A stretch of DNA of 40,661 nucleotides from Alphaproteobacteria bacterium Ga0077535. GTDB taxonomy: Bacteria; Pseudomonadota; Alphaproteobacteria; Caulobacterales; Aquidulcibacteraceae. Shown here piece by piece: positions 16,266 to 40,661 of this stretch. How positions within the stretch are numbered: the stretch's first letter is position 1; each line of letters opens with the position of its first letter. The DNA is taken from positions 1 through 40,661 of the forward strand of contig LNEK01000031.1 in NCBI GenBank assembly GCA_001464425.1, written 5' to 3'. The position numbers were made by a program, and so were the translations under genes. The notes beneath the pieces were generated by a model, which made no database searches, was not told the DNA's origin, and worked only from the letters and a program-made list of their open reading frames with translations.

Positions 16266-16283
16266 TGTCAGGCAATGTTGACG
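16266..16283. promoter_or_regulatory. near-consensus PpsR/CrtJ box over the crtI start
   Basis: TGTCAGGCAATGTTGACG matches TGT-N12-ACA except for the last base and keeps the inner dyad TGTCA...TGACG. It spans the crtI start codon (ATG 16275), about 30 bases after the bchO stop. It may repress crtIB transcription from a promoter inside bchO. Confidence 0.4.
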
Positions 16284-17769
16284 GTCGCGCCAGAACAGCC
16301 GGTTGTACGGCTCGAACCGGATGGGCGGCCGCATGCGATCGTCATCGGAAGCGGATTTGGCGGTTTGGCCGCCGCTGTGCGCCTCGGCGCGCGCGGCTAT
16401 CGCGTGACGGTGCTGGAACGGCTCGATGCGCCGGGCGGGCGCGCCTACGTGCACCGGCAGGACGGCTTCACCTTTGACGCCGGGCCGACGATCATCACCG
16501 CGCCGTTTCTGTTTGAAGAACTCTGGGAGATGTGCGGCCGAAAGCTCAGCGACGATGTCGAGCTGCGCGCGATCGATCCGTTCTACGATCTTGTGTTCAA
16601 CGATGGCGAGCGCCTGTCGTGCGGCGCTTCCATGCGCGATGAGATAGCCCGCATCGCGCCTGATGATGTGGCTGGCTATGACCGCTTCATGCGCCGGAGC
16701 GAGGAGATATATCGCGTCGGCTTCGAGCAGCTCGGCGCGGCGCCGTTTCACGCGTGGACGGAAATGTTGCGTGTCGCGCCGGATTTGCTGCGGTTAGGCG
16801 GGTTGGAGAGCGTTTACAGTCTCGTCTCGCGCTACGTGCGCGATCCGCGCGTGCGCATTGCGTTGAGTTTTCATCCGCTGTTCGTGGGCGGCAATCCGTT
16901 CAGCACGACTGCGGTTTATTGTCTGATTTCATACCTCGAACGGCGACACGGCGTGCATTTCGCCATGGGTGGCACCGGCGCGCTGGTGGAAGGCTTGGTG
17001 ACGCTGATCCGCGGGCAGGGCGGCGCGGTACGCTGCGATGCGGAGGTGGCGGAGATCATTCTTAGCGATGGGGCGGCAAGCGGTGTGCGGCTCCTAAATG
17101 GCGAAACGCTTCGCGCGGATATCGTCGTGTCGAACGCGGATTCGGCGCACACGTACGGGCGTTTAGTGCCGGCAAGCGCGCGCAAGACTTGGACTGATGG
17201 CCGCCTGGCGTCTGCGCGTTACTCGATGAGTTTGTTTGTCTGGTATTTCGGCACAAATCGCCAATACCCCCGCGTGCCGCACCACACGATTTTGCTCGGG
17301 CCGCGCTATCGCGAGTTGATCGAGGACATTTTCACGCACAAACGCCTCGCGTCGGACATGAGCCTCTATCTCCACCGCCCGACCGCGACTGATCCCTCAC
17401 TGGCGCCAGCCGCATCTCGATGCCGACATCGATTGGAGGTTAGAGGCTGAGCCGTATCGTCGCCGTGTCGAGCAGCGGCTCAGTGAAACGCTGCTGCCCG
17501 GACTTTCCGATTGCATCGTGACGTCGCGCGTGATGACTCCTCTCGATTTTCGAGATCAGCTCTGCGCACCCAAGGGCGCTGCGTTTGGGCTTGAGCCTAT
17601 CTTGACGCAAAGCGCTTGGTTCAGGCCGCACAACAAAAGCGGTGACATCAAAGGGCTTTTTCTTGTCGGGGCCGGGACGCATCCGGGGGCCGGAGTTCCG
17701 GGCGTGTTGTCATCTGCGCGCGTGCTTGATTCAGTGGTGCCACATGCGTCCGAACTTGCATCGGCCTGA
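16275..17769 (+). pseudogene. crtI: phytoene desaturase CrtI, frameshifted by an apparent 35-bp deletion
   Basis: CrtI desaturates phytoene towards neurosporene or lycopene. The first frame (16275-17408, 378 residues) has the FAD motif IGSGFGGLAAA (25-34) and is collinear with known CrtI up to HRPTATDPSLAP. There the frame changes. One stray G (17409) follows, and from 17410 a different frame gives PHLDADIDW and runs intact to the normal C-terminus (QSAWFRPHN, VGAGTHPGAGVPG). In relatives about 12 residues, including DTFYVLSPV, sit between these points, so 35 bases appear lost. The unrepaired protein would end at 17450. Restored length would be about 509 residues, as usual. A real mutation or an assembly error are both possible. 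Confidence 0.9.
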
Positions 17770-18793
17770 GCGCGCCACCCCCGGTGACCTCGCGACCTGC
17801 CGCGAGATGATCCGCACCGGCTCGCGCTCATTTTTTGCCGCGTCTTTGCTGTTGCCGGAGCATGTGCGCAACGGCGCGTACGCACTCTATGCATTCTGTC
17901 GCTTTTCCGATGATAGCGTCGACGTTGAACACGGCGGCGAAGCGGCGGTAGAGCGCCTCGCGGCGCGGCTTGACGCGATTTACGCCGGTGCGCCAGCGGA
18001 TGGTGCGGTCGATCGCGCTTTGGCGGATGCGGTTGAGCAATACGATATTCCGCGTGCGCCCTTTGACGCTTTGCTGGAAGGCTTGGCGTGGGATGCAGTG
18101 GGGCGGAGCTGCGAAACGCTCTCGGATCTTTACGCTTATTCCGCCCGCGTCGCCGGCGCGGTGGGTGCGATGATGACGGTGCTCATGGGGGCGCGCGAGC
18201 CGCACATGGCGGCGCGCGCGACCGATCTGGGCGTGGCGATGCAGTTGACCAATGTCGCGCGCGACGTTGGCGAAGACGCGCGCGCTGGCCGACTCTATCT
18301 GCCGCGCGCATGGATGCGTGAAGCGGGGCTCGATCCCGATGCGTGGTTGGCGCGGCCGACGTATTCGCCTGAGATAGCGCAGATTGTGTCACGGCTGTTG
18401 CAGCATGCGGACGAGCTCTATCGGCGCTCGGATGTGGGTATTTCCGCGCTTCCAGCCGCCTTCCGGCCCGCGATCTACGCCGCACGGCTGCTATATGCGG
18501 AGATTGGTGAGGGCGTTGCGCGGGCCGGGTTTGATTCGGTGTCGTCCCGCAGTGTCGTTTCCACCTCGCGCAAGCTCCAGCTGGTGACGCGCGCGTTGAC
18601 ACGCACTTGGCGCACAGGAGCGCATGCGGAGCTTCACGCGACCGCATTGCCTCAGACGCAGTTCCTTGTGGATGCGATTGCGGCGGCGAATGTGCAGACA
18701 TCGGCGGACGCCATCGGCGGCGTGCGGCGTGATGTTAAATGGGTGATCGATCTGTTCGCCGCGTTGGATGAGCGGCCGCGCCGTTTGGCGTAG
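17744..18793 (+). CDS. crtB: phytoene synthase
   Basis: Joins two geranylgeranyl diphosphates to phytoene. The 349-residue protein has the first aspartate-rich motif DDSVD (56-60), after AYALYAFCRFS. The second is around D174-D178, in NVARDVGEDARAGRLYLP, and is highly conserved. ATG 17744 overlaps the 3' end of crtI by 26 bases, a usual arrangement for crtIB; in-frame ATG 17642 would lie deep inside crtI and is rejected. It is intact, unlike crtI. Confidence 0.95.
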   Translation: MRPNLHRPERATPGDLATCREMIRTGSRSFFAASLLLPEHVRNGAYALYAFCRFSDDSVDVEHGGEAAVERLAARLDAIYAGAPADGAVDRALADAVEQYDIPRAPFDALLEGLAWDAVGRSCETLSDLYAYSARVAGAVGAMMTVLMGAREPHMAARATDLGVAMQLTNVARDVGEDARAGRLYLPRAWMREAGLDPDAWLARPTYSPEIAQIVSRLLQHADELYRRSDVGISALPAAFRPAIYAARLLYAEIGEGVARAGFDSVSSRSVVSTSRKLQLVTRALTRTWRTGAHAELHATALPQTQFLVDAIAAANVQTSADAIGGVRRDVKWVIDLFAALDERPRRLA

Positions 18794-19944
18794 AGGTGCA
18801 GGTTTATGGATGTTAATCCGCTTTTCCTGCTTGAATTTGTGCTGTTTAGCGGCGTCGCCTTGGCTTGGGCGGCGTACGAATTTTGGAGCGCTCGTCCGGA
18901 TAAGGACGAGGCGAAGTCAGCGCCGCCCGACGATGCGGGGCATCCGGAAGGCGAGAGGCTCTCATGCATGATGTCGGCGGGCGCGCCGTTTATTTCACCG
19001 ATAAGCTGTGAGCGCGCGTAGAACGGCGCATCTTCTAGTGTGCGGACAAGGCGTGGCGCTGCGTCAGCAGGACCTCGCGTGGCGCGTGGCACGCGCCAGA
19101 AGGTGTTCGGTAGCTCTGCGTGCTGTGGCGGGTCGATCTCGGTTGCGCTTCCCGCTTGATCAAAATGAAGCGCCAGGGAGCGATCGGCGCCGCTGCGTGG
19201 GGTGACATCGTAGTAGATCTGCGTCCCGTTGTGGGTATGCGCGCGCGACCAGTGCCAGCTGCGGAATCCATGTTCGAGCGGTTCTTCGCCCCAATTGCTG
19301 TCGAAATACGCGTCGCCGGACCAGTCGAGTGCGCCGCCATCGAAACGGACATCAACACGCGCGCGCGGCGCAATCGGCCGCCAATGGTGCCGCTGTCCAG
19401 CGTCGAGCGCGAAGGATTGGGTGTTGATCGCCTCGGGTCGCAGCGTGACTGTGCCGCGCACGCGCGAGGGCAGCGGCGCTGTCCATTCATCGATCTCAAG
19501 CTTCAGAGCGTCGCCGTCCCAGTGCATGCTGCTTGGGCCGATTGCGATGCAGCTATGCGATCGCGAAAGGTCGCCGCGACCGCGCTCGGTCATCGTCCAG
19601 CGATCGCGTCCGGCGCAGTAGAGCGCGACATTCATCGCGCAATGATTTTCCGGATCGCGCCAACCCGACCACGCGTAGTACGGCGAGAACACGCTGCCGA
19701 TGAAGGCGATGATGGTCAGGCCGTGCTGTTTGTCATCGCTGAGTGCGTCGATGTACCACCAGGCGTAACCGCCGCCGGGCGGGACCGGCGCGTCGAAGCG
19801 CGGTCCGCCAAGATGCTCTGCGCTGCTTGCTGGCCCGAGAGCGCCGCCATCGGAACGCCGGCTCCCGGATGCACGCCGCCCCCCGCCAGGTAGAGACCCG
19901 GTATCTTCGTGCGCGATCCCGGCCGCTGAAACGAGGCCGCCCAT
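18652..19944 (-). CDS. crtC: hydroxyneurosporene synthase CrtC, ends abnormal
   Basis: Carotenoid 1,2-hydratase adding water to neurosporene or lycopene end groups. The recognisable protein covers 19809 down to 18952. It begins GGPRFDAPVPPGGGYAWW and contains IIAFIGSVFSPYYAW and YFDSNWGEEPLEHGF. It reaches DIMHESLS, where homologues continue for roughly 15-20 more residues. Here the frame instead reads through antisense to the small gene and crtB, stopping at 18652. At the other end there is no ATG, GTG or TTG in frame between the conserved start and ATG 19944, which lies 229 bases inside crtD. Start and end are therefore both uncertain, and the gene may be damaged. Confidence 0.7.
   Translation of the reverse strand: MGGLVSAAGIAHEDTGSLPGGGRRASGSRRSDGGALGPASSAEHLGGPRFDAPVPPGGGYAWWYIDALSDDKQHGLTIIAFIGSVFSPYYAWSGWRDPENHCAMNVALYCAGRDRWTMTERGRGDLSRSHSCIAIGPSSMHWDGDALKLEIDEWTAPLPSRVRGTVTLRPEAINTQSFALDAGQRHHWRPIAPRARVDVRFDGGALDWSGDAYFDSNWGEEPLEHGFRSWHWSRAHTHNGTQIYYDVTPRSGADRSLALHFDQAGSATEIDPPQHAELPNTFWRVPRATRGPADAAPRLVRTLEDAPFYARSQLIGEINGAPADIMHESLSPSGCPASSGGADFASSLSGRALQNSYAAQAKATPLNSTNSSRKSGLTSINLHLYAKRRGRSSNAANRSITHLTSRRTPPMASADVCTFAAAIASTRNCV
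18806..19021 (+). CDS. small single-pass membrane protein after crtB, C-terminus apparently cut
   Basis: A 71-residue frame starting 12 bases after crtB. It has one hydrophobic segment (FLLEFVLFSGVALAWAAYEFW, about residues 6-26), then a charged tail ending DDAGHPEGE. I recall small genes of this type next to crt genes in alphaproteobacterial clusters, but no function. After HPEGE (about base 18955) the frame runs antisense into crtC, and the residues lose the expected character. The same point is where the convergent crtC loses its normal end, so both 3' ends may have been removed by one deletion. The N-terminal part is credible; the last 20 residues are probably not native. Confidence 0.55.
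   Translation: MDVNPLFLLEFVLFSGVALAWAAYEFWSARPDKDEAKSAPPDDAGHPEGERLSCMMSAGAPFISPISCERA

Positions 19945-39142: not shown

Positions 39143-40661
<1,519 letters not shown>

Follow-up and report, generated by a model that had tools for sequence, protein, structure and literature searches.

The carotenoid gene crtI of this draft genome is split into two reading frames by the loss of 35 bases, and we infer, with a probability of roughly 0.84, that the loss is not present in the organism. It would instead belong to a group of artefactual deletions, each about 32-44 bases long, that arose from the sequencing or assembly of the draft. The window, i.e. the whole stretch of DNA that was analysed, is contig C31 with 40,661 bases, and it carries part of the photosynthesis gene cluster. 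The features concerned are listed below with their coordinates, strand and supporting evidence.

16275..17408, plus strand: crtI, first part, N-terminal 378 codons with the frame intact (TIGR02734 match)
17409..17410, plus strand: crtI junction, where 35 bases of the relatives are absent (alignments to relatives; motif in 80/80 listed loci)
17410..17769, plus strand: crtI, second part, 119 codons and a stop in another frame (reading frame and TIGR02734 match)
18652..18951, minus strand: run-on of the crtC frame beyond the crtC junction, out of frame relative to the relatives and overlapping crtB (frame inspection)
18950..18952, minus strand: crtC junction, where 40 bases of relatives G010, G001 and G019 are absent (alignments to relatives)
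18952..19713, minus strand: crtC (carotenoid 1,2-hydratase), the part that is in frame, with a provisional start codon (NF045922, 273.8 bits)
40615..40661, no strand: end of the window, whose last 47 bases also open contig C20 (sequence identity)

The whole crtI span is 16275-17769. From the inspection of the reading frames, the gene is open up to 17408, where it ends in DPSLAP; base 17409 is an odd base between the two frames, and PHLDADIDW... then runs from 17410. This is the split claimed in a preliminary description of the same DNA, and the frames and the family profile both confirm it. Against TIGR02734, the profile for CrtI of purple bacteria, the first part alone passes the family threshold (437.6 bits at profile positions 1-366, compared with a cut-off of 238.1), and the second part scores 134.9 bits at positions 377-491. 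Positions 367-376 are left uncovered, and no single continuous frame extends over the whole profile. Both parts therefore match the family; what the window is without, when compared with these proteins, is the 35 bases and the continuity of the frame.

When the 1,495 crtI bases were aligned to G010 (locus L030) and to G001 (locus L029), the result was 1,530 alignment columns with 35 gap letters, in one gap each and no other, which is exactly the size that had been deduced by arithmetic in the preliminary description. The 35-base gap is also found at the identical place against L031, G019 and G017, the alignments to G019 and G017 carrying additional small gaps within the gene. In the relatives the missing stretch encodes the conserved G-C-D-x-F-Y-V-L-S-P-V. 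The suspected loss of a conserved motif is borne out by the comparison with relatives: all of the 80 CrtI loci listed carry this stretch and read through it without gap or stop, and the window crtI does not have it. Near relatives have an unbroken crtI of 509 codons. A long DNA match to crtI was found in only 4 of the 29 genomes of the same genus (G001, G010, G017 and G019), and the photosynthesis cluster seems to be patchy within the genus.

In a profile search of the window's own genome, the hits above the CrtI cut-off were limited to CrtD and the first half of crtI. A second CrtI as a rescue was rejected, as the next match after CrtD (C20:200629-201657) reaches 86 bits compared with 238.1. 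At face value, the earlier expectation that the cell makes no coloured carotenoids does follow from this result. For the living cell it is probably untrue, because the deletion is better explained as an assembly error.

The observation that no other decay is seen on either side of the crtI break did not hold. At 1.5 kb from it, crtC is 40 bases short at 18951 when compared with G010, G001 and G019, and the end of the gene is out of frame. In a poorer alignment to G017 the gap is 25 bases, accompanied by smaller gaps. The NF045922 match of crtC stays below the cut-off of 400 and covers profile positions 1-253 of 278; crtB also has a family match below cut-off. Family matches above cut-off in the window are those of crtD, acsF, pufM, bchL, puhE and isopentenyl isomerase. 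From sequence and gene order, we take other genes of the window to be bchI, bchD, bchO, crtE, crtF, bchC, bchX-Z, pufL, hemA, puhA, lhaA and bchM. Two of the 6 crt genes in the window are broken. When the listed bch, puf and puh genes of the window were compared with G010, no net frame break was seen inside the genes, and the net gaps that are not multiples of three sit at gene borders.

Gaps of similar size were then counted over larger parts of the genome, using blastn blocks with a minimum length of 700 bases and a minimum identity of 68% and merging gaps that lay no more than 6 letters apart. The first sample comprised the window and C20:1-500000 against the G010 contigs C10, C4 and C8 (269,252 columns). 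The second comprised C30, C42:1-140000 and C7:1-80000 against parts of the G010 contigs C2 and C7 (105,740 columns), with C7 of the window's genome yielding no alignment. The control was G010 against G019 with 190,370 aligned columns. Over the 374,992 columns against G010, the gaps of 31-45 bases in this assembly comprise 16 deletions and a single insertion (13:0 in the first sample and 3:1 in the second; binomial p 0.0003), whereas the control has 1 deletion and 0 insertions. The class thus recurs in this assembly and not between the two relatives. Gaps of 20-30 bases are balanced, with deletions and insertions of 5:6, 3:3 and 3:3 in the first sample, the second sample and the control, respectively. 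The deletion lengths across the assembly are about 32-44 bases, and the extrapolated rate is about 169 such deletions per genome. Outside the window they lie at C20:346729, C20:194041, C42:89428 and 11 more sites when compared with G010. The sole control gap of this size, at G010:C4:256829, is 41 bases absent in G010 relative to G019, with well matched flanks.

The contrast is weaker with looser settings. With a looser drop-off and neither merging nor filtering, the counts for 31-45 bases become less clean, 10:2 and 3:1 in the two samples and 1:7 in the control; requiring in addition that the flanks reach an identity of 0.7, a threshold chosen post hoc, gives 9:0, 2:0 and 0:0. The flank identity is below 0.75 in 3 of the 16 deletions (0.62, 0.68 and 0.74), and these three may be natural. 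One of them is C20:201351, where the gene's own frame remains open. More generally, several of the 16 sites, being intergenic or poorly flanked, may be natural. The deletions also show little respect for the reading frame: only 4 of the 16 lengths are multiples of three, compared with 86 of the 147 first-sample gaps in the 6-30 base range (Fisher p 0.016), in a test that mixes coding and non-coding sites. Between alignment blocks there are also gaps of 416-1343 bases, with deletions and insertions of 4:3 in the first sample, none in the second and 0:2 for G010 against G019.

Several of the deletions fall in housekeeping genes. The glutamate--tRNA ligase gene gltX is 35 bases short with its frame broken; its protein was matched in 28 of 30 relatives at E below 1e-160, so the gene is not universal, the exceptions being G003 (residues 21-299 only, 6e-157) and G046 (a weak match only). 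The same genome as the window also encodes another glutamate--tRNA ligase, 40% identical to this one. Pyruvate dehydrogenase E2 is 40 bases short and frame-broken, its pieces scoring 296.6 and 150.6 bits; no whole E2 in the genome reaches the family cut-off of 445, and three further proteins that resemble E2 lie at 203-230 bits. The beta-ketoacyl-ACP synthase I gene (fabB) is 44 bases short near its start, again with a broken frame, and another ketoacyl synthase with 42% identity to its product is present. With such partial paralogues present, each of these hits may be non-lethal. Out-of-frame splits were also found in a PEP-protein phosphotransferase, a sulfurtransferase and a DASS symporter, and in-frame losses in Mfd (33 bases) and in a glycosidase (42 bases; closest to BglA and treC, with scores below cut-off). 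Other deletion sites are intergenic or close to gene ends. At the start of trpD, outside the set of 16, a gap of 28 bases becomes 40 upon realignment.

Frame-split genes were also counted with tblastn. On this genome there are 11 out of 253 with G010 proteins and 3 out of 92 with G019 proteins, compared with raw control counts of 4 out of 193 (G019 proteins on G010) and 7 out of 270 (ORFs of this genome on G010); the control rows and the second-sample rows C42:41038 and C42:70707 were counted without inspection. This count separates the genomes little, and on its own it would not convict the assembly. Single-base errors were rejected as the source of the 11 genes, since six of them belong to the 31-45 base class (crtI, gltX, E2, the sulfurtransferase, the PEP-protein phosphotransferase and the DASS symporter). 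Among the other five, four resemble gene-border cases in which the reference ORF is too long, and the fifth is at C20:355930. The G010 gene concerned has about 911 codons; in this genome it falls into two frames and is about 22 bases shorter, within a stretch that aligns poorly, and the portion searched gave no family match.

The junctions were examined at 14 sites. A loss driven by hairpins or GC content was rejected: when compared with 1,500 random stretches, the relatives' segments at these sites are not enriched in either, and several sites are lower. Microhomology was also rejected, with a mean placement freedom of 1.2 compared with 2.0 for 1,000 simulated deletions; one site of the 14, C20:201351, has a placement freedom of 7.

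For selection, the dN/dS values against G010 are 0.064 and 0.061 for the first and second parts of crtI and 0.130 for crtC, while other genes range from 0.011 to 0.153. The crtI values fall within the range of the neighbouring genes. The unique amino-acid changes in this genome and in G010 number 13:8 and 1:4 for the two crtI parts and 10:14 for crtC. Neither measure gives a sign of relaxed selection on crtI in the comparison with G010. Long disuse of crtI and crtC appears unsupported on these sequence grounds, although a very recent loss would look alike.

The preliminary description left the choice between a recent event and an assembly error open. We favour the error, because deletions in this size class turn up repeatedly across the assembly and break housekeeping genes. 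Sequencing and assembly would have dropped about 32-44 bases at many sites, and in the cell itself crtI, crtC and the affected housekeeping genes are probably intact. Such cases have a precedent in the spurious pseudogenes that arise from genome assembly, as given in the abstract of Cooley and Wright 2024 (PMC11017572): there, as here, genes that are frame-broken in a public assembly are probably whole in the organism. The abstract concerns frameshifts and internal stops generally and does not mention a class of losses confined to 32-44 bases, and in a partial coverage of the literature no title dealt with crtI of this species or with such a deletion class.

It is unlikely that the organism itself has recently lost these bases of crtI and crtC, in which case phytoene desaturase and the acyclic carotenoid route would have been lost and the bacteriochlorophyll and reaction-centre genes kept, leaving a carotenoid-free phototroph. 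The breaks in crt genes beside bch, puf and puh genes in which none was seen would fit such a loss, as would the lack of another CrtI above cut-off besides CrtD. However, the same size class recurs beyond the crt genes, and the unique changes and dN/dS give no indication of relaxed selection. Carotenoid-free strains of the R-26 type are laboratory mutants, whereas the loss here is probably technical. In favour of this reading, carotenoid-free purple bacteria do exist in the laboratory; an example is Rhodobacter sphaeroides R-26, which appears among the references of PMC4331045 and resembles what a real carotenoid loss would be. In Caulobacterales, by contrast, an excerpt of PMC12700997 states that the phototrophy genes always co-occur with a combination of crtCDF.

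Even less credible is that all the deletions are real, and that the lineage is undergoing, or lately went through, a burst of blunt deletions of 32-44 bases across its genome, without junction homology and of unknown cause. The narrow size range and the lack of junction homology or hairpins do look like a single process, and carotenoid synthesis would then be switched off in a bacteriochlorophyll-making cell, among other effects. However, the extrapolated number per genome is large, with many deletions in genes that cells rarely do without, and crtI lacks the relaxed selection already looked for. We give almost no weight to the idea that the split crtI works as two polypeptides or via a programmed frame change. 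Both parts are CrtI-like with dN/dS of about 0.06, but a frame change could not supply the conserved stretch, because the stretch present in all the listed relatives' loci is itself absent; furthermore, the frame of the second part contains no ATG, GTG or TTG before 17518, which is well inside the part.

With the assembly fault as the preferred reading, the consequences extend beyond one gene. The assembly, a draft of 44 contigs and 3,956,659 bases, is the species representative in its collection and is rated 99.98% complete, yet by extrapolation it could contain well over a hundred such deletions. Anyone deducing lost pathways from it, for instance that the bacterium is a phototroph devoid of carotenoids or has no pyruvate dehydrogenase, would be misled. 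Counting deletions against insertions of 30-45 bases relative to near relatives is suggested as a cheap check for other drafts.

The contig ends were also examined, 67 of the 88 after leaving out those with N. Fifteen pairs share exactly 98 bases inward and the remaining shared overlaps are 44 to 98 bases long, as expected of a short-read graph assembly. The idea of a 47-base word length, taken from the overlap of the window with C20, was dropped, as 98 is the common shared length. No link was found between the overlap pattern and the 32-44 base losses. The exact 47-base end shared by the window and C20 lies inside the photosynthesis cluster; therefore, the two contigs adjoin, and C20 (locus L118) continues the cluster beyond the window.
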